Source of the DNA: Acidobacteriota bacterium
GTDB taxonomy: Bacteria > Acidobacteriota > Vicinamibacteria > Vicinamibacterales > SCN-69-37
Reading direction: 5' to 3'
Length of the DNA: 64,000 bases
Assembly (NCBI GenBank): GCA_009694745.1
Contig: SHUF01000002.1
Coordinates: forward strand, 62,001 to 126,000
Numbering within the stretch: the stretch's first letter is position 1; every line of letters starts with the position of its first letter. Below, piece by piece: positions 5,485-44,210 of this stretch. Made by a program: the position numbers and the translations under genes. Under the pieces are notes generated by a model. The model searched no databases. It saw only the letters and a list, made by a program, of their open reading frames with translations, and was not told where the DNA came from.

Positions 5485-5580
5485 TAATGGCGAAATGACA
5501 CAAATATCCGAAATGGCGAAATGTCTGCAATTGAGGAATAGCAGAATTTCGGAATGTCTTGCAATGAGGGGAATGGCTGA
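5485..5580 (+). repeat. Partial copy of the 208-bp TAATGGCGAAATG element (left arm)
   Basis: The stretch starts TAATGGCGAAATG and continues through the ACACAAATATCCGAAATGGC arm found at the ends of the full elements at 25107-25314 and 40775-40981. It then decays into AATG-rich degenerate words instead of reaching the right arm. The start codon of the next gene at 5581 lies in a final degenerate unit of the same motif. Confidence 0.7.
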
Positions 5581-6042
5581 ATGTCACGACTGATTTGCGG
5601 ATTCATCGTGCTCCTCGGAATCGCATTCGCGACGGGCGTAGAAGCTCAGCAGAAGCCGGACTTCACTGGTACCTGGGTCGTCGTCACGCCGGCTGACTCG
5701 GCGGGGCAGGAACAGTTCGTGCGCCACACGCCGACGACACTCTCCACGGGCCATGCGTCGGAGGGCGACGGTCACAACGCCTCATACAAACTCGACGGCA
5801 GCGAAAGCCGCAACGAGCTCGGCTCTCACGGCCAAGTAATCGTCACTATCTCCAAGGCCGTGTGGGAAGGCGCCACGCTCGTCATCACCAGTTCGACCAC
5901 CTATTCTAATGGTGGAAAAATGGACTCAAAACAGATCTGGTCCATGGACTCTGAGGGTCGCCTCGTAGTCGAGCACACTCAGACGGAGGCCGGACAGCCC
6001 ACTCGGTCGGGCACCGTGGTGCACACAAAGAAGACCACGTAG
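5581..6042 (+). CDS. Small secreted protein of unknown function
   Basis: The 153-residue product has a clear Sec signal peptide, hydrophobic to about residue 20 and ending VEAQQ. A compact beta-rich domain follows, beginning PDFTGTWVV, a pattern common in lipocalin-like or other small periplasmic beta proteins. I do not recognise the family. The ATG lies inside a degenerate copy of an intergenic repeat and has no convincing Shine-Dalgarno sequence. The stop codon is also within a hairpin repeat (6038-6085). The signal peptide and coherent domain still argue that the gene is real. Confidence 0.6.
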   Translation: MSRLICGFIVLLGIAFATGVEAQQKPDFTGTWVVVTPADSAGQEQFVRHTPTTLSTGHASEGDGHNASYKLDGSESRNELGSHGQVIVTISKAVWEGATLVITSSTTYSNGGKMDSKQIWSMDSEGRLVVEHTQTEAGQPTRSGTVVHTKKTT

Positions 6043-12553: not shown

Positions 12554-12618
12554 AAAACGACCTCTGAGGTAGTTTATTTTTCCCCTCTGAAGAAAAGAAC
12601 TACCTCAGAGGTCGTTTT
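12554..12618. repeat. CCTCTGAGG inverted repeat, copy 1 (divergent gap)
   Basis: Two 21-bp arms (12554-12574 and 12598-12618) are perfect reverse complements with core ACGACCTCTGAGGTAGTT and a 23-nt A/T-rich loop. The element lies between the divergent gldA and arsR genes. It therefore cannot serve as a simple terminator for either gene. Copies occur at 27180-27243 and 46254-46275. Confidence 0.85.
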
Positions 12619-12629
12619 AGGTACCCATG

Positions 12630-22837: not shown

Positions 22838-23772
22838 CCGCCGCCACCAAACTGCGCAGCCGCCACCTCCTGGGGATCGCCGAACTCGATCCCGACGAGA
22901 TCGAACTTATCCTCGACACCGCGGTGGCGATGAAAGAAATCGGCACTCGGACCATCAAGAAAGTACCGGCACTGCGCGGGCGCACGGTGGTGAACCTGTT
23001 CTTCGAGGCCAGCACCCGCACACGGCTGTCCTTCGAACTCGCAGAAAAACGACTGAGCGCCGACACGATGGGCATCACCGTGGCCGGCTCGAGCGTGACC
23101 AAAGGCGAGACTCTGGCCGACACGGCCCGCACACTTGAAGCTATGTCGCCCGACCTCATCGTCATTCGCCACGCGGCGTCGGGCTCGCCGCATCTGCTGT
23201 CCACCATCTGCAAGGCGGGTATTGTGAACGCCGGCGACGGCACGCACGAACATCCCACGCAGGCTCTGCTCGATGCGCTCACTATGCGCGAGCGCAAAGG
23301 ACGGCTGGCGGGCCTCAAGGTCGCCATCGTCGGAGACCTGCTGCACAGTCGGGTGTTGCGGTCCAACGTGCTGCTGCTGACGAAGATGGGCGCCGAGGTT
23401 CGCGCGTGCGGCCCGGCAACGTTGATTCCGCTGGGACTCAAGGCGCTGGGCGTACATGTCACGACTTCGATCGACGAGGCAGTGAAAGACGCCGACGTCG
23501 TCATGATGTTGCGTGTTCAGCACGAGCGCATGCATGGGCTCTTCCTGCCGTCGCTGCGTGAATACTTCAGCTTGTTCGGTCTCACGCCCGCGCGACTCGA
23601 ACACGCGGCTTCAAACGTCATCGTGATGCACCCAGGCCCGATGAACCGGGGTGTGGAAATTGACTCAGCCGTGGCGGATGGGCCGTGGTCGGTGATTCTG
23701 GATCAGGTGGCCAACGGCGTGGCCGTGCGCATGGCCGTGTTGTACCTGCTGGCAGGCGAGGAACTGACGTAA
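22834..23772 (+). CDS. pyrB: Aspartate carbamoyltransferase, catalytic chain
   Basis: This enzyme condenses carbamoyl phosphate and aspartate in the second step of UMP synthesis. [13 protein letters not shown] is the carbamoyl-phosphate site, SVTKGET the 80s loop, and HPTQALLD a further signature. At 312 residues it is the normal length. No PyrI regulatory chain is adjacent, so a class B or DHOase-associated form is likely. The stop overlaps the pyrC start (TAATG). Confidence 0.95.
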
Positions 23773-25109
23773 TGGCTCACGCAACAGACGCGTACGTGCT
23801 CAAGGGTGGCCGGGTCGTGGATCCCCGAGCGGGTCGCGACGGGCACTTTGATATCCGCATCGAGAACGGCCTGGTCGCGGCGATTGGCAAGGACCTGCCG
23901 CTCGACGACGCGCGTGTTGTGGAGGTGCCCGCCGGGTTCGTGAGTACGCCCGGGCTCATCGACATGCACGTGCACTTGCGCGAGCCAGGGCAGGAGCACA
24001 AGGAAACGATCGCTACCGGCACGTGGTCGGCGGTCGTCGGCGGGTTCACCGGTGTCGCGTGTATGCCGAACACGGATCCGGTGAACGACTCGGCATCGGT
24101 GACCCAGTTCATTCTGAAACGCGCCGCTGAAGCGGGATTCGCGCGTGTGTATCCCATCGGCGCTGTCTCGCTCGGCTCCATGGGCGATCAGATGACCGAG
24201 ATGGGTGACTTGCGCGCGGCCGGGTGCGTGGCGTTTACAGACGATGGCAAGCCGGTGGCGACGGCGTTGCTGATGCGCCGGGCGCTGGAGTACGCAGGGA
24301 TGTTTGACGTGCCGATTATCGAACACTGCGAAGACCCTTCGCTCAAGGGCGATGGCGTGGCGCACGAGGGCGCCGTGGCCGCGATGCTCGGCTTGCGCGG
24401 CATTCCCGGAGTGGCCGAGTCGATCATGGCCGAGCGCGACATCAGCCTGGCTGAAGTCACCGGCGGCCGCATCCATGTGGCCCACATGAGCGCGAGGCAG
24501 ACGATGAGAGCGGTGCGGGATGGGAAGTCGCGCGGTGTGCGGGTGACCTGCGAGGTGGCACCGCATCACTTCACGCTCACCGATGAGGCCCTCAAAGACG
24601 GCGCAGGCTACAACACGAACCTGAAGATGAATCCGCCCCTGCGCGAGGAAGCGGATCGCCTGGCGATGATCGAAGGGCTCAGAGACGGTTCCGTGGACAT
24701 CATTTCCACCGACCACGCCCCGCATCACGCCGACGAAAAGGCACTCGAATTCGACCGTGCCCCCTTCGGCATCGTCGGTCTTGAAACATGTGTCCCGCTG
24801 TGCCTAGACCGGCTTGTGCACGCCGGTGTGATCTCACTGTCGCGCCTCGTTGAATTGCTGTCATCGAACCCGGCGTCGCTGCTGAAGATTCCGGGCGGCA
24901 CGATCGCGGTCGGCGCGCCAGCGGACCTCACTGTGCTGGCGCCGGACGCGCCGGTCACCGTTCGGACAGCCGCGCTCGTTTCGAAGTCGAAGAACTCACC
25001 CTTTGACGCCTGGCAGCTCCGCGGAGCCACCGCCGCGACGATTGTTGGCGGCCGCGTGCTCTACGCGAACCCAGCCGTCGCTGACGCGGCGCGATTCGTC
25101 GCGACGTAA
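23772..25109 (+). CDS. pyrC: Dihydroorotase
   Basis: This zinc amidohydrolase of 445 residues is of the long (type I, PyrC/AllB-like) class. The metal site [10 protein letters not shown] and STDHAPHH near the C terminus are clear. ATG at 23772 shares its first base with the pyrB stop; the open frame further upstream is shadow. The TAA stop (25107-25109) forms the first bases of a 208-bp inverted-repeat element. Confidence 0.95.
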
Positions 25110-25314
25110 TCGCGAAATGTCACAAATGCCCGAAATGGCGAAATGCCGGACAAACCAATGCAGGGAAGAATGTTCGAATGTCTTTGCCCTCCAATGGTTG
25201 AATCTGCTGCTCCAAGGTCATTCGCCAATTGCGCGCCTTGGACATTTGGGCATTTTGCCATTCCCGCACTGCTGACATTTCGCCATTTCGGACATTTGCG
25301 ACACTTCGCCATTA
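25107..25314. repeat. 208-bp element with about 40-bp terminal inverted repeats, copy 1
   Basis: The left end starts TAATCGCGAAATGTCACAAA. The right end, reversed, starts TAATGGCGAAGTGTCGCAAA, and the arms match for about 40 bp through CCGAAATGGCGAAATG. The interior shares CCAATGCAGGGAAGAATG and CAATGGTTGAATCTGC with copy 2 at 40775-40981. It begins and ends with TA, contains no gene, and supplies the pyrC stop codon. It resembles a MITE in architecture. The ribosome-site region of the downstream phosphoribosyltransferase starts just after it. Confidence 0.85.
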
Positions 25315-25332: not shown

Positions 25333-25932
25333 ATGACGACATCGCTTAATGAACTCAAATCTCTCGGGGTACTAATGGTCGATAGCCATTTCGACTACGG
25401 GAATGGCTACCACGGCACGGTGTATCTCAATCCCCACCGGCTGTTCCAGCAGCCAGGGACGATCTGGCGCGTGGCGCAGGATTTGATCGCGAAGCTCCCG
25501 GTCGATCTGGTGAGCGCGACCGAGGTGGTGTCGGGCCCAGTGATGGGCGGTACGCTGCTCGCGCACACGATGGCTGGGCTGCTGGACGGCCACCGGCCCC
25601 TCAGCCACCCGGCGTGTTTCTTCGCGCCATTGTCGATGGACCACACGGGGTCGCTGGTGCTGCGCAGGTTCTATCGGGACGTGGTGCGTGGCAAGAAGGT
25701 GTTGCTCGCTGATGACGTCCGGAATACCGGCACCACCTTCGGGCGCGCGAAGGCGCTCATCGAGGATGCTGGAGGCATCGTGATTGCCACGGTTCAGATC
25801 TGCGATCGGCTCGAGGCGATGGTCGAGCTTGGCGTGCCGAACATCGCGCTCGCGGAGTACCCAGCCCCGGAGAACTACCCGGCAGCGGATTGTCCGCTGT
25901 GTAAAGCGGGCGTGGCCGTGGCCGCCTTCTGA
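25333..25932 (+). CDS. Orotate phosphoribosyltransferase-like protein
   Basis: This 199-residue type I phosphoribosyltransferase has the PRPP loop VLLADDVRNTGTTF. Its N-terminal region (VDSHFDYGNGYHGTVYLNP) is arranged like the substrate flap of orotate phosphoribosyltransferases. The C terminus ends PAADCPLCKAG, similar to the CPLCAAG end of the canonical PyrE at 33467. Its place after pyrRBC suggests pyrimidine metabolism. The PRPP loop lacks the usual TTGGS form, so the substrate could be a different base or orotate. It may be a second PyrE. Confidence 0.75.
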   Translation: MTTSLNELKSLGVLMVDSHFDYGNGYHGTVYLNPHRLFQQPGTIWRVAQDLIAKLPVDLVSATEVVSGPVMGGTLLAHTMAGLLDGHRPLSHPACFFAPLSMDHTGSLVLRRFYRDVVRGKKVLLADDVRNTGTTFGRAKALIEDAGGIVIATVQICDRLEAMVELGVPNIALAEYPAPENYPAADCPLCKAGVAVAAF

Positions 25933-25943
25933 ACGTGCGCTTG

Positions 25944-26014
25944 TAATGTTGAAATGCCACAAGTGGCCGAAGTGGCGAAATGTCTGCAGGGTATGAATGC
26001 ACGAATGGTCGAAT
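25944..26014 (+). repeat. Partial copy of the 208-bp element (left arm)
   Basis: TAATGTTGAAATGCCACAAG continues as a diverged left arm up to GCGAAATGTCTGCAGGG and then an AATGCACGAATGG tail. The right arm is missing. The candidate start codons of the TIGR02757 gene lie inside it. Confidence 0.65.
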
Positions 26015-26850
26015 GCCGGACGCGCCTCGACCGTCTCTACGCCGACTTCAATCATCCTGAGTCGGCGTTTGATCCCATTCAGGTTGTGCGGCGGTACGAG
26101 CGGCTCGACGATCGTGAAATCGTCGCCTTCATCGCGGCCGGACTCGCGTTTGGCCGCGTGGCGTCGATCGTCGCGTCCATCGAAGCCGTGTGTCAGGTGT
26201 TGGGGCCCTCGCCAGCAAAGGCCGTGCGCAGATTCGAGCTCGCGCGCGATGGCGCCGCACTGCTGCCGCTGGTGCACCGGTGGATCAAAGGCCGCGACCT
26301 CGTCGCGCTTTTGTGGATGCTCCGACGAATGCTCGATGAGGCCGGGTCGCTCGAAGCGTACTTCGCACAGGGGTGGTCGGCAGACGCGGCCGATGTGGCT
26401 GAGGCACTGGAGTCGTTCTCCACTCGTGCGCGCGCGATCGACCTGAAGCCCGCCTACGGCAAAGTGCCGAAGGCGCCCGGCGTGTACTTCTTCTTCAGCC
26501 GTCCGTCGAGCGGCGGCGCCTGCAAGCGGCTCAACCTGTTTCTTCGCTGGATGGTGCGTAAGGACGGTGTCGATCCGGGCGGATGGAAGACCCCGCTGCC
26601 GGGCCAACTCGTGATTCCTCTCGATACGCACACTATTCGCGCCGGGTCGTGTCTGCGCTTGACCAGGCGCGCGTCGCCGGGCTGGAAGATGGCCGCCGAC
26701 ATCACACAGTCGCTGCGCGCCATCGATCCAATCGACCCTGTGCGGTATGACTTTTCACTCTGTCACCTCAGCATGATGGGCGCGTGCGGTTACAAGACGA
26801 AGCAGCGCGACACACAGTGTCCGCTTCAGGGCATTTGCCGCCCACGGTGA
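25993..26850 (+). CDS. TIGR02757 (DUF2400) family protein
   Basis: The core DDREIVAFIAAGLAFGRV and later TPLPGQLVIPLDTH and SLRAIDPIDPVRYDFSLCH segments fit TIGR02757 proteins. These are all-helical proteins with HhH-GPD-like DNA glycosylase resemblance and a terminal Cys cluster (CPLQGICRPR). Function is not established. Starts at 25993 or 26005 give N termini of family-like length. The frame is open back to 25954, but that part is repeat DNA. Confidence 0.75.
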   Translation: MNARMVECRTRLDRLYADFNHPESAFDPIQVVRRYERLDDREIVAFIAAGLAFGRVASIVASIEAVCQVLGPSPAKAVRRFELARDGAALLPLVHRWIKGRDLVALLWMLRRMLDEAGSLEAYFAQGWSADAADVAEALESFSTRARAIDLKPAYGKVPKAPGVYFFFSRPSSGGACKRLNLFLRWMVRKDGVDPGGWKTPLPGQLVIPLDTHTIRAGSCLRLTRRASPGWKMAADITQSLRAIDPIDPVRYDFSLCHLSMMGACGYKTKQRDTQCPLQGICRPR

Positions 26851-26876: not shown

Positions 26877-26937
26877 TCGGAGGTCCCGGGCTTCAGCTCG
26901 GGACGTGTTGGCACGGGCTAAAGCCCACGCCGCCCGC
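26877..26937. repeat. Double-hairpin repeat GGTCCCGGGCTTCAGC, copy 1
   Basis: GGTCCCGGGCTTCAGCTCGGGAC is followed by GGCACGGGCTAAAGCCCACGCC. Each forms a stem-loop. A better preserved copy is at 54949-55010. It lies between two plus-strand genes. Confidence 0.6.
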
Positions 26938-26954: not shown

Positions 26955-27200
26955 TTGGCGTTTGACCTGGTGTTCGGCGTCATCCTGGTCGTGATCATCC
27001 TCGGCGTGATCTTCCGCTTCGGTCTCTGTGCCGGCTTCGTCGGGTTCTTCTGTCACTTCTGGACATGGGGCGTGGCCATCACGCTCGAGTCTGACCGGCC
27101 GTACTTCGAGACGGGCCTCGTCGCTCTCGCGCTGGTGGCCGCCATCGCCGTCACAGGTTGTGTGATGACGCGATCACGTCAAGAACGACCTCTGAGGTAG
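26955..27200 (+). CDS. Small two-helix membrane protein, uncertain
   Basis: This open frame of 81 codons starts at a TTG. It encodes two strongly hydrophobic segments (about residues 4-36 and 50-70) separated by a short polar loop. The last six codons and the stop come from the adjacent inverted repeat (27180-27243). No family is recognised and no clear ribosome site precedes it. It could be a real membrane peptide or chance coding. Confidence 0.35.
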   Translation: MAFDLVFGVILVVIILGVIFRFGLCAGFVGFFCHFWTWGVAITLESDRPYFETGLVALALVAAIAVTGCVMTRSRQERPLR

Positions 27201-27243
27201 TTTTTTCTTCCCGTGAGGAAAACTACCTCAGAGGTCGTTCTTG
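27180..27243. repeat. CCTCTGAGG inverted repeat, copy 2 (convergent gap)
   Basis: Two perfect 25-bp arms (27180-27204 and 27219-27243) share the core ACGACCTCTGAGGTAGTT and a 14-nt loop. A T-rich stretch at the loop and convergent neighbours make it a plausible bidirectional terminator. The arms are longer than in copy 1. Confidence 0.85.
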
Positions 27244-39409: not shown

Positions 39410-39417
39410 AGGGCGGG

Positions 39418-39516
39418 CCTCGACCTTGAAGACTAGGCCGAGCTACGCACGGAAAGATGCCGAGTCGGTACGTAGCTCGGGCCCGGTACGTAGCTCAGGC
39501 TGTTCCTCAAGCCCGA
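39418..39516. repeat. CTCGGGCT hairpin repeat, convergent gap, copy 2
   Basis: GGCCGAGCTACGCACGG and GTACGTAGCTCGGGC units are followed by CCTCAAGCCCGAG. The arrangement parallels copy 3 at 59146-59224 and, in part, copy 1 at 6038-6085. It lies between genes that converge. Confidence 0.65.
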
Positions 39517-39522
39517 GTATCC

Positions 39523-40484: not shown

Positions 40485-40742
40485 ATGGGTGATTCGGGCG
40501 AAGGCCTTATTGACGCGGACGCGAGAATTCAGGAACTGGCCGATGAGCGAGAGGCCGCCAGACGCGAGAAACGGTCGCCGCAGGCGCCGGTTGACCCGGT
40601 GAAAAAGGCGCAGGTGACCTCGCTCACGCTGGGGCTGTCGGAACTGCGCCGCCAGCTCGAGGCCACCGAACATCCCGTCCGGCAGAAGCAGCTCAAAGCC
40701 GCGATTGCCGACGTCGAGAAACGCCTAGCGACGCTAGGCTAG
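40485..40742 (+). CDS. Small coiled-coil protein
   Basis: The 85-residue acidic/basic protein is predicted largely helical (ELADEREAARREK and LSELRRQLEATEHPVRQKQLK), suggesting a coiled coil. There is no recognised family. The ATG is preceded by a plausible AGGT. It is followed by the second full 208-bp repeat. Confidence 0.5.
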   Translation: MGDSGEGLIDADARIQELADEREAARREKRSPQAPVDPVKKAQVTSLTLGLSELRRQLEATEHPVRQKQLKAAIADVEKRLATLG

Positions 40743-40774: not shown

Positions 40775-40981
40775 TAATGGCGAAATGCCACAAATGTCCG
40801 AAATGGCGAACTGCGGACAAACCAATGCAGGGAAGAATGCCCGAATATCCTTGCCCTTCAATGGTTGAATCTGCAGCTCCAAGGTCACTCTTTCATTGAG
40901 CGCCTTGGACATTCACGCATTGGGCCATTTGCGCATTGCAGACATTTCGCCATTTCGGACATTTGTGACATTTCGCCATTA
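40775..40981. repeat. 207-bp element with about 40-bp terminal inverted repeats, copy 2
   Basis: The element starts TAATGGCGAAATGCCACAAA and ends with the reverse complement (...CATTTCGCCATTA). The arms match for about 40 bp. The interior shares several 18-bp words with copy 1 at 25107-25314 and has the same length within 1 bp. No coding capacity is seen. The full gap 40743-41023 holds only this element. Confidence 0.88.
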
Positions 40982-41023: not shown

Positions 41024-42736
41024 TCAGCGCCGACGAAGTATCGGATACACCTTGGCTCCCTCGACGCCCAGTGCGTCGTCGAGGTAATTCCAAGCCGTGA
41101 GTCCGTCGTCGGATTTCGGTTCGAGCAGGTAGAACACGAGCCGCGCGAGTTTCTGGTTCATCGCCACGGCGAATGAGCCGATGGGCGCGGTGACGTCGGT
41201 GGCCGCCCAAGTGCCGTCGAGGCTGCGGAGTTCGTGGCTACCGGTGTCGATCGAGTTGGTGGCCGCACGCTGGGTGTTGGCCGAGATGGCGAACTGCTCC
41301 AGGCCTTTAGTGGCGATGGTTGTCTTTCGCATCTGCACGCCGTGGGTGCGCAGCAACTCAAGCGCCTTGGTGGCGCCGGCAGGAATGTAGTACTCGGTCG
41401 GCGCGGTTTCGGTGGTCGTGGGCTCGAACCACAGGCGGTCGGTCATCTGTTCCGCCTTGATGACATCCTTGCGGCGGTTCATGTTCCGGCCGTTGATGGG
41501 GTTCTTTTCGTCCTCAACCTCACCCATCAGAATCTCGATCATGCCGCCGTTGCGAATTTGCGCGCGCGAGGCGAGGGTTTTGCCCGCCAGTGTTTCCCGG
41601 TCAGCCGAATCCACTGCGGTTCGGATCTTCGCCACGTTCTGGTGCGCGAAGTTCATCGCCTCTTCGATGAAATAGTTCGTGGCCAAGATGCGGTCCTTGA
41701 ACGTGGCGTACGCGTACGCCTCACTGAGGAGCGCGAAGCGGTTGCGCATGCCGACATAGTTGTTGTGGAAGCGGGGCACATGCTCGAAGGTGCCCCATGC
41801 ACGGGGACCGGCGGGGACCGCCGGCGCCTGCGGCTGCGCCACAGGAGGTGTGGCTGGGGCGCCCTGGCCCCCACCACGGCCGCCGCGGCCGCCGCCGGGG
41901 TTGCTCGCGTTGCCGTAGTAGAACGTCTCCCACTTGTACTTCTCGCGAATGGCCTTGGTCACAAACGGGAACCACTCGTCCTTCATGATCGACATGATGC
42001 CGATGTTGGTATTCGGGTTGAGCGGCGGCGAGTACGTGAGGTGGTAGCCGTGGGCGGAGCCGTCGGAGGTATGCAGGTCCATCCCGACGTACGGGTCGTA
42101 GTCGTTCCAGAGCTTCGCAAACGCACGGCCTTCCGGCGTTTCGAGCTTCATGAAGTCGCGATTGATGTTGATGTTCTGGCCGTTGGCGCGTGTGCCTTGG
42201 CCGTTGATGGGGCCGTTCTGCACGCCGCGATTGGTCAGCGAAAAACGCTCGTTGCCGTCGGCATTAAAAATCGGCGTGATGAGAAACACCATCGTCTCGA
42301 GCCAGTCGGCGTGTTTGCCTTGCGCGAACTCGCGCAGCAGGACCAGCGCCGCTTCCTTGCCCTCCACCTCACCCGCGTGGATGTTGCCCTGGATGTGCAC
42401 GCGCAACTTGCCCGAGGCTTTGACCGAAGCCGCACTGGCGTCCTTGAGGCCCGTGCCGACCACAGCCAGCGGCATCATCCTGCCCTCGTAGGTGGTGCCG
42501 TAGCTGATCACCCGGATATTCGGCGACGCGTTGTCGACGATGGTCATGAACCCGAGCACTTCAGCGTAGGTCGAGGTCGTTCGGTAGTCCGACGACTCGG
42601 CCACGGTCTTGAGGCTGTCGAGTTGTGACGTGGGCTTTGCCGGTTGCGGTTGCGGTGCCGGCGGCGCTGCCTGCTGCGCCTGCCCCGGAAAGGCCAGGGC
42701 GGCGACGATGGCGAGTGAGAGAAGTGATCGTGACAT
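41024..42736 (-). CDS. Secreted M14-family zinc carboxypeptidase
   Basis: This exported metallopeptidase of about 570 residues has a signal peptide ending GQAQQ. The zinc ligands appear in HAGEVEGKE (HxxE, about residue 118) and in MDLHTSDG. A Gly/Arg-rich loop (GGRGGRGGGQG) lies around residue 290. ATG at 42736 fits the signal peptide. It is divergent from the M24 peptidase with only 40 bp between them, suggesting coordinated peptide scavenging. Confidence 0.85.
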   Translation of the reverse strand: MSRSLLSLAIVAALAFPGQAQQAAPPAPQPQPAKPTSQLDSLKTVAESSDYRTTSTYAEVLGFMTIVDNASPNIRVISYGTTYEGRMMPLAVVGTGLKDASAASVKASGKLRVHIQGNIHAGEVEGKEAALVLLREFAQGKHADWLETMVFLITPIFNADGNERFSLTNRGVQNGPINGQGTRANGQNININRDFMKLETPEGRAFAKLWNDYDPYVGMDLHTSDGSAHGYHLTYSPPLNPNTNIGIMSIMKDEWFPFVTKAIREKYKWETFYYGNASNPGGGRGGRGGGQGAPATPPVAQPQAPAVPAGPRAWGTFEHVPRFHNNYVGMRNRFALLSEAYAYATFKDRILATNYFIEEAMNFAHQNVAKIRTAVDSADRETLAGKTLASRAQIRNGGMIEILMGEVEDEKNPINGRNMNRRKDVIKAEQMTDRLWFEPTTTETAPTEYYIPAGATKALELLRTHGVQMRKTTIATKGLEQFAISANTQRAATNSIDTGSHELRSLDGTWAATDVTAPIGSFAVAMNQKLARLVFYLLEPKSDDGLTAWNYLDDALGVEGAKVYPILRRR

Positions 42737-42763
42737 GACGGTGGGGAACCTCTGGGCCACGAT

Positions 42764-42769
42764 TATAAT
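42764..42769 (+). promoter_or_regulatory. -10 box of the M24 peptidase gene, near-leaderless
   Basis: A perfect TATAAT ends 7 bp before the ATG at 42777, so transcription should start at or next to the start codon. The divergent gap is only 40 bp. Confidence 0.55.
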
Positions 42770-42776
42770 CGCGCGT

Positions 42777-44210
42777 ATGCCCCGAACCTTCATCCGAGTG
42801 AGTGTGGTCCTGTCGCTGGTCGTGCTGGCCTGGTTGCCGCTGGGCGCCGACAAGCCGCTGTTCACCCAGGCGTTCTCCACTGGCGAGTTCAAGGCACGCC
42901 GCGCCAAGGTGATGGACGCCATCGGGAATGGCGTGGCTATCCTGGCCGGCGCCACCGAACCGGCGGCGTATACAAAGTTCCAGCAGGGCAAGCAGTTCTT
43001 CTACCTCTCGGGCGTTGAAGTTCCGCGCGCGATTCTGCTGATTGACGGGCGCACAAAGACATCCACGCTCTTCCTGCCGGCGCGCAACTCGGCCTCAGAC
43101 CGCTCTGAAGGGCCCCTGCTGGCTCCTGGAGACGAGGCGGCTCGACTGACGGGCATCGAGCAGGTGGCGGATCGCGACACGTTCGACGGCGTGGTGAAAG
43201 CGGTGGCGGCTGAAGGACGGTCAATCTACTTTCCGTTCCGGAGCGAGTCACTCGGCGCGGCGGCGCCCGACCGCATCTCCAACCACGAGCGCGCGGTGGC
43301 GGCCGACCCGTGGGATGGCCGCGCGTCGAAAGACGCCGTGTTCCGCGAGAAGCTGCGGGTGGCGGCGCCCCGGTCCGAGATCCTGAACCTCGATCCGTTC
43401 GTGGACCGCATGCGCATGATCAAAAGCGCCGAGGAGATCAAGATCATGCGCGAGACCACGCGCCTTTCGAGCCTGGCGATTCTCGAGTCCATGAAGTCGG
43501 CGAAGCCGGGGATGTACGAGTACGAGATCGAGGCGATTGCCGACTACATCTTCAAGCGCCACAACGCGCAAGGTATCGGGTACTACGCGCTTGTCGCGAC
43601 AGGTACCAACGCCTTCTGGCCGCACTACCACGCGGCGCAGAGCCGGCTTGAAGACGGTGACATGGTGCTGATGGACTACGCGCCGGACGTGTCGTACTAC
43701 ACCACCGACGTCACGCGCATGTTCCCGGCCAACGGTACGTTCTCGCCGAGGCAGCGCGAGATGTACGGCATCTATCTCAAGTTGTACCAGGCGCTGATGT
43801 CGTCGATCCGGCCAGGGCCGGCGGCCGAGTCTCTCGCGAATGCTCACAAAAAGATGATCGCGATCATGGAGACGTTCCCGTTTACCGACCCCAAGATCAA
43901 GGAAGCGGCCGAACGGTTTGTGGCCGGCTACGCGCGGCCCCGCAATTCGTTTGGTCATTGGCTTGGGATGGAAGCGCACGATGTGGCCGGCGCCAACTTC
44001 GACGGCGTCTACCTGTCGGGCATGATGCTGACCATCGAACCCGCGCTCACCATTCCCGACGAACGCATCTACATCCGCCTCGAGGACGCGATTCTGATCA
44101 CGGCCACAGGCTACGAAAACCTGTCGGGCTCGCTCCCGATGGAAATGGCCGACATCGAGAAGGTGATGAAAGAGCCAGGGCTGAGCGACCTTTGGAAAAT
44201 TGGGAAGTGA
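42777..44210 (+). CDS. Secreted Xaa-Pro aminopeptidase (M24B)
   Basis: The 477-residue protein has a signal peptide (to about GADK), an N-terminal AMP_N domain and the C-terminal pita-bread fold. Metal-ligand regions are MDYAPDVSYYTTD, FGHWLGMEAHD, TIEPAL and LEDAIL. It removes N-terminal residues before proline, probably in the periplasm. The stop overlaps the next gene as GTGA. Confidence 0.9.
   Translation: MPRTFIRVSVVLSLVVLAWLPLGADKPLFTQAFSTGEFKARRAKVMDAIGNGVAILAGATEPAAYTKFQQGKQFFYLSGVEVPRAILLIDGRTKTSTLFLPARNSASDRSEGPLLAPGDEAARLTGIEQVADRDTFDGVVKAVAAEGRSIYFPFRSESLGAAAPDRISNHERAVAADPWDGRASKDAVFREKLRVAAPRSEILNLDPFVDRMRMIKSAEEIKIMRETTRLSSLAILESMKSAKPGMYEYEIEAIADYIFKRHNAQGIGYYALVATGTNAFWPHYHAAQSRLEDGDMVLMDYAPDVSYYTTDVTRMFPANGTFSPRQREMYGIYLKLYQALMSSIRPGPAAESLANAHKKMIAIMETFPFTDPKIKEAAERFVAGYARPRNSFGHWLGMEAHDVAGANFDGVYLSGMMLTIEPALTIPDERIYIRLEDAILITATGYENLSGSLPMEMADIEKVMKEPGLSDLWKIGK

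Follow-up and report, generated by a model that had tools for sequence, protein, structure and literature searches.

Paired 208-bp palindromes in an Acidobacteriota genome as probable gene-less copies of a mobile IVP cassette

Based on the anatomy of a dispersed repeat family and on comparisons to congeners, to other Acidobacteriota and to plasmids, we propose that the paired 208-bp palindromes in the analysed stretch of DNA (the window, 64,000 nucleotides in full) are probably gene-less, non-autonomous copies of a mobile IVP cassette, of which C67:6887-7570 would be the gene-bearing form. The genes of IVP (23S rRNA intervening-sequence protein) considered here appear as single-gene cassettes, in which one gene lies between mirrored arrays of 7-9-bp units with repeat words of their own. 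Such cassettes occur in many Acidobacteriota and in cyanobacteria and may reveal the role of a long-unexplained protein family.

The element family in the window and the host genome

The window holds the following members of the family:
25107-25314, + strand: full element of 208 bp, flanked by genes for a dihydroorotase-like amidohydrolase (23772-25109) and a phosphoribosyltransferase-domain protein (25375-25932)
25107-25145, + strand: left terminal arm of this copy, with AATG units at 8-9 bp spacing
25276-25314, - strand: right terminal arm of this copy, inverted
40775-40981, + strand: full 207-bp element, between the convergent predicted genes 40485-40742 and 41024-42922
40775-40813, + strand: left terminal arm of this copy
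40943-40981, - strand: right terminal arm of this copy, inverted, with further AATG units inward of it
5485-5583, + strand: solo arm, the last AATG of which gives the ATG of the predicted ORF 5581-6042
25944-26015, + strand: solo arm, whose unit at 26004 contains an ATG (26005) in frame with a DUF2400 gene

The two paired elements had been reported in a sequence-only reading of the window, and their coordinates proved right: the copies, 208 and 207 bp long, are 87% identical end to end and, as that reading held, contain no gene, the longest ORF being 45 aa in one and 67 aa in the other. The inverted ends that it described are likewise present, but the 25107 copy starts TAATCGCG and not TAATGGCG. 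The solo arms at 5485-5583 and 25944-26015 were absent from its list, and it had missed the array nature of the arms, in which AATG recurs every 8-9 bp, reading AATG in the left half of an element and CATT in the right half. Within the window, the pattern TAATGGCGAAATG with at most two mismatches has 13 matches versus 0.60 expected, a number reached in 0 of 100 shuffles. The first TAA of the 25107-25314 element is the stop codon of the amidohydrolase gene; the start of the DUF2400 gene is 25954 in the gene model used, as opposed to the alternative ATG at 26005.

The array pattern extends to a sample of about 399 kb, picked because it holds family members. In its intergenic DNA, AATG autocorrelation peaks at 8, 9, 17 and 26 bp, and chains of at least three units number 42 for AATG versus 0-5 for sixteen other 4-mers, in a sample selected for the family. 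Arm matches (at least 27 of 39 positions) also number 42 in this sample versus none in one mononucleotide shuffle; two lie inside predicted genes, three over a predicted gene start and the remainder in intergenic DNA. Throughout the host genome (2.79 Mb in 81 contigs, 83% complete), a BLAST search for the family gave 77 rows, in which both strands of each palindrome are counted; they include 15 places of 146 bp or more, and many solo arms of about 40 bp are present as well. Single-copy occurrence, named in the earlier reading as a refuting result, was therefore not seen. Two arm types are distinguishable by eye and are combined in either order. Of 13 aligned copies, 8 have the same interior of about 130 bp, parts of which lack any AATG unit; these copies therefore descend by copying, and the others recombine parts of that interior. 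Among the 11 copies with both ends placed, 9 have TA at each end. The 208-bp family, being short, multi-copy, bounded by terminal inverted repeats and without a gene, has the form of a bacterial MITE.

A role as a start-codon device was rejected: although both window solo arms run into start codons, AATG chains favour neither direction (of 42, the downstream gene is codirectional for 18 and opposed for 23). A stop-codon preference in the host genome likewise found no support, with a stop no more than 15 bp away for 13 of 27 elements versus 11.0 expected (p 0.16). Palindromic target flanks are pronounced in L002 and clear in L003; over 10 copies, however, p is 0.33. Constraint on the AATG core was discarded for the interior, where the difference is gone on comparing A/T positions alone (p 0.52); the terminal arms give p 0.002 in a comparison made without composition control.

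Occurrence in congeners and fold of the element

Absence from congeners is the rule for both window copies: the 25107 element is lacking from 6 of 6 congeners with both flanks aligned, and the 40775 element from 4 of 4, one further genome having no flank pair. Conserved orthologous positions, which the earlier reading had named as a refuting result, were unseen for the 208-bp element: of the 25 slot-by-species comparisons in which both flanks align, none has it. One of these (in G002) has an inverted arm pair with a different interior, and arm remnants persist in G001 at three slots, so that some absences are losses. Some solo arms are apparently kept in place in congeners, as judged by eye (e.g. 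L069 10435 and L032). A clean empty site for the AATG family was found in no congener, the sites being too diverged for a target duplication to be read. When 100 genomes were searched for the element, three matched, namely its own genome and two congeners; the exact arm patterns had no match in genome-contig and viral-contig collections, scans from which near records may be missing.

Another hairpin or arm pair occurs in 6 of the 25 slot comparisons, three of them at one slot. The hairpin background is 3/31, 3/20, 6/25, 1/18 and 0/3 intergenic regions in small, partly chosen samples, and hairpin hot spots at element slots are suggestive only. At the C44 slot (L077 9731-9939 and its orthologues L191, L194 and L196), each of four species has a large hairpin, and the four fall into about three kinds.

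As RNA, the 40775-40981 copy folds at -105.5 kcal/mol (z -11.0), equalled by 0 of 200 shuffles. So stable a fold would suit a conserved structured RNA or a regulatory hairpin kept in place, e.g. a terminator or RNA-stability element, an option the sequence-only reading had allowed, and the hairpins of four species at the C44 slot, the solo arms that look kept in place and the resemblance of paired arms point in the same direction: over 12 pairs of 39-bp arms, identity within a copy is 0.85-1.00, and arm agreement is 0.915 within copies versus 0.897 between copies (permutation p 0.01). However, an Rfam search of the window gave no match, 1 of 42 predicted pairs shows a double change over 13 copies, the window copies are missing from congeners and the gene context of the elements is mixed; we regard a conserved RNA as distinctly improbable.

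Candidate movers and the gene-bearing cassette

The earlier reading had suggested a dispersed MITE-like family moved by a transposase outside the window. The dispersed family and a mover that likely lies outside the window are retained; the gene-bearing relative found encodes an IVP, not a recognised transposase. The transposase search covered RAYT (PF01797) and IS630 (PF13358). RAYT-family genes have 11 matches in 7 of 7 genus genomes, the host included, and REPs pair as inverted units, so that REP/BIME-type repeats moved by RAYT (Y1) transposases, in line with the REP-like label given earlier, had to be weighed. Against this, another palindrome flanks the gene on both sides in four of six loci tested, with no AATG arms, the motif GGGGACGGG recurs in three RAYT loci, and a scan of 11 loci for AATG chains yielded two chance two-unit matches, one within a GGGGAC hairpin. 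On the loci examined, the RAYT mover was rejected, and the REP-like label is not supported; the chance that it is correct is, in our view, exceedingly small. The genus RAYT genes (L205, L204, L207, L203; L211, L208, L206) form groups with palindromes or motifs of their own (AAAAAGACGTCGGGTGTC, GAAAATGAGCTCGGAGGCG and GGGGACGGGTGTG).

IS630 has 8 matches in four of the seven genus genomes, three genomes being above the cut-off and the host genome below it. No arms were found at the 8 loci scanned, which gave a single chance two-unit match, and IS630 was rejected as the mover.

The gene-bearing relative, C67:6887-7570 (684 bp), is an inverted arm pair around an intact ORF, its arms carrying the consensus base at 37 and 36 of 39 positions. 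The ORF is a TIGR02436 four helix bundle protein (54.5 bits versus a cut-off of 24), and in Pfam it is PF05635 23S_rRNA_IVP (34.7 versus 33.8 bits); a profile of 16 IVP proteins matches the solved structures 2gsc (XCC0516) and 2rld. Among 15 proteins compared, the nearest are two IVPs of G004 (52% and 48%), one of them in AATGRGSC arrays. Like the window copies, the cassette sits between predicted protein genes, outside 23S rRNA genes. Since this relative with AATG arms encodes an IVP, we file the 208-bp elements as IVP-cassette derivatives. Its interior has little in common with the 208-bp interiors (5 copies tested), as is usual for a MITE and its source. It counts against the assignment that only a single gene-bearing cassette with arms of this kind turned up, and that its periodicity scores, 0.55 and 0.53, are below threshold. 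The low scores come from the alternation of its units between 8 and 9 bp, and the link between the 208-bp elements and the IVP cassette therefore rests on arm sequences.

Alternatively, the family may be an ordinary MITE of a TA-target DDE transposase (IS630-like or other) that is now lost or unassembled, the C67 IVP gene having landed between two arms. TA at both ends of most copies would agree with this, the size, non-coding interior and long terminal inverted repeats fit Correia and RUP as presented in the accessible part of one account (PMC2229807), and the genome is 83% complete, with the DDE search limited to IS630. On the other hand, the IS630 match of the host is sub-threshold, the 8 genus loci are without arms, and the association of IVP genes with arrays, laid out below, covers many words and plasmids of other phyla, which makes C67 no lone coincidence. 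A conventional MITE thus appears unlikely.

IVP cassettes in other genomes and known systems

PF05635 has 21 matches in 6 of the 7 genus genomes, the host among them (19 above the cut-off), and 147 of 297 phylum genomes match (139 above the cut-off). The words flanking genus IVP genes include GGTTCATG, GGACCCTG, AGCACCC, GATTGGGG, ACATCTGA and AATGRGSC, among others. Flank periodicity in the genus is 0.70 near the gene versus 0.48 at 1 kb (38 flanks each, 20 of 21 loci, p 2.8e-10). It is 0.64 versus 0.48 (60 versus 57 flanks, p 3.4e-12) in a phylum set of 30 loci from 30 other Acidobacteriota genomes, taken as the best match, one per genome, and 0.81 versus 0.50 (28 flanks each, p 4.7e-10) on 14 plasmids (13 from cyanobacteria and one from Gemmatirosa), a subset of the 30 records found. 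At least six inverted 8-mers are common to both sides in 15 of 18 genus loci versus 4 of 18 far-stretch pairs, and in 18 of 30 phylum loci versus 0 of 27. Compared to 177 control genes, one flank reaches a periodicity of at least 0.65 in 17 of 19 genus loci (controls 15.3%) and both reach at least 0.6 in 13 of 19 (controls 1.1%), counts from which L224 was left out owing to its contig-edge start, its two flanks being one stretch. The measure of at least three common 8-mers is uninformative, 53.7% of control genes having them. Besides the C67 cassette, the genus locus L226 fails the periodicity measure. In the phylum set, one flank is below 0.6 in 10 of 30 loci and both are in 7 of 30, and the plasmid loci L275 and L277 are weak, which speaks against the IVP-cassette reading.

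Two gene-less hairpins of G003 match IVP loci of the same genome, L239 strongly (100 bits) and L237 weakly (32.5 bits). Over 51 loci, IVP distance and common repeat words give a Mantel r of -0.24 (0 of 2000 permutations), i.e. the repeat word weakly tracks IVP relatedness; the correlation shrinks to r -0.08 (8 of 2000) when only pairs with less than 70% identity are taken, which tells against our reading. L254 and L262, of different families and with 49% protein identity, have one common word. At the genome level, of the 15 genomes that have AATG octad arrays, 14 carry an IVP gene, versus 133 of 282 others (p 3e-4, hand tally), an association that may be inflated by common ancestry and genome size. 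The reversed-pattern control is poor, being itself an octad array in other lineages, with an IVP gene in 14 of its 18 genomes (p 0.01). In favour of an IVP cassette as the source, neither an IVP gene with AATG arrays nor a full element copy was found in G001. Against it, G002 (85% complete) contains an inverted arm pair yet no IVP match, and G005 has AATG-type arrays, but the AATG word at 0 of its 5 IVP loci. The phage records gave no IVP match.

Filled and empty sites were identified for other IVP cassettes. On the Nostoc plasmids L284, L290, L291 and L292, two ORFs are parted by three bases; in L276 and L289 this junction is filled by an array, an IVP gene and an inverted array, a disrupted version being present in L288. 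The junction that follows is occupied by a different IVP cassette in L284 and by no cassette in the remaining six records. In the upstream part of the same backbone, gene-less arrays of the first word occur as inverted pairs (L289, L290) or single arrays (L288, L291), and L276, L284 and L292 have 15-22 bp where related plasmids have gene-less arrays. Gene-less arrays of a cassette's word thus also come and go on Nostoc plasmids. In Picosynechococcus PCC 7003, a cassette lies between cas10 and cmr3 that PCC 7002 is without, the edges being somewhat diverged. From these filled and empty sites it follows that array and gene arrive together. In addition, L285, L281 and L283 are IVP cassettes inside CRISPR-Cas operons (cas10/cmr3; cas6/cas4), and cassette insertion may explain the IVP genes that the accessible part of one study reports in cas loci (PMC3936711).

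The bare three-nucleotide Nostoc spacers also bear on whether arrays might grow in place by slippage and template switching, with no mobile element involved and IVP genes simply favouring such loci. Words do vary between lineages, and one locus (L064 347) has a long tandem run of CCCGAAATG units, as slippage would produce. The joint arrival of array and gene and the interior common to 8 of 13 copies, partly without AATG units, both oppose growth in place, to which we assign very little probability.

Under the preferred reading, that of a mobile IVP cassette with gene-less copies, the IVP protein would recognise the repeat word cognate to it, in DNA or in hairpin RNA, and could act in trans on gene-less copies that retain arms, probably together with a host or other enzyme. 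RNase III may cut the hairpin out of RNA, by analogy to what is reported for the 23S rRNA IVS, in which case insertions would be tolerable. The solo arms and remnants would have arisen by decay, and some of them now form the 5' edges of genes. We know of no catalytic activity of IVP, a point against this scheme.

IVP cassettes resemble the 23S rRNA intervening sequence (IVS), of which they would be relatives located outside rRNA. According to the accessible part of one report (PMC4990558), the IVS of Coxiella and Leptospira is an S23p/IVP ORF within terminal inverted repeats that fold to a long stem, is called selfish, with a mobile origin proposed in the 1990s, and in Coxiella has tandem heptamers directly before the ORF and is excised by RNase III in vitro; IVP/S23 proteins are described there as without known function since their discovery inside the IVS. 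A PF05635/TIGR02436 ORF between inverted repeats is found in C67:6887-7570 and not in the gene-less 208-bp copies. In contrast to the IVS, the cassettes here are intergenic to protein genes, have array-type arms of many words, and occur in several copies per genome with gene-less dispersed relatives. The MITEs Correia/NEMIS, RUP, RPE and Nezha, so far as the accessible portions of PMC2229807 and PMC3733652 describe them, are likewise short, non-coding and intergenic, with terminal inverted repeats, often TA ends and a stable hairpin; here, however, the terminal repeats are arrays and the gene-bearing partner encodes an IVP rather than a recognised transposase. REP/RAYT systems, from what is accessible of PMC3733652, also comprise a single-gene source and short repeats of its own scattered genome-wide, but with another protein, and the arm of about 40 bp here is an array and not a palindrome.

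The Beggiatoaceae TAACTGA heptads (PMC4679880) and cyanobacterial STRR heptads (PMC2670836) are, in the accessible text of both sources, degenerate 7-bp direct intergenic arrays too, with no known function; the former mostly adjoin start codons, and one STRR can form a hairpin. That text mentions no link of these arrays to an IVP gene, and they differ from the present arrays, which bound an element and have a unit of 8-9 bp. In the literature searched, with most subscription papers outside its reach, no earlier report of an IVP-array link was found.

More broadly, and only tentatively, as a proposal that we think has a fair way to go before it reaches even chances, PF05635 IVP/S23 proteins could be mobility factors of widespread minimal elements, each clade reading its own 7-9-bp word in inverted arrays and moving the cassette and gene-less copies into gene junctions without a known recombinase, perhaps via hairpin RNA and a borrowed reverse transcriptase, as with the homologue Avd in diversity-generating retroelements. 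Avd resembles PF05635 proteins in sequence and structure, as stated in the accessible part of PMC10053308. If this were true, orphan arrays such as cyanobacterial STRRs would be debris of IVP elements, and a common origin could follow for many unexplained degenerate heptad and octad arrays and hairpins in bacterial intergenic DNA. The filled and empty pairs in culturable cyanobacteria (Nostoc; Picosynechococcus PCC 7003 versus PCC 7002) allow both mobility and the protein's role to be tested directly.

Other repeats share the window with this family. Positions 12554-12619 and 27183-27242 belong to a further family of dispersed palindromes (ACGACCTCTGAGGTAGTTTT...AAAACTACCTCAGAGGTCGT), which also has copies at other sites in the genome. 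At 26877-26931 lies a repeat of about 50 bp (GGCTTCAGCTCGGGAC...GGGCTAAAGCCC) that has many G002 matches among those listed. A repeat of about 100 bp with GTACGTAGCTCGGGC, at 39415-39518, has many copies in the host genome and in G001, where a similar repeat occupies the slot of the window solo arm at 25944.
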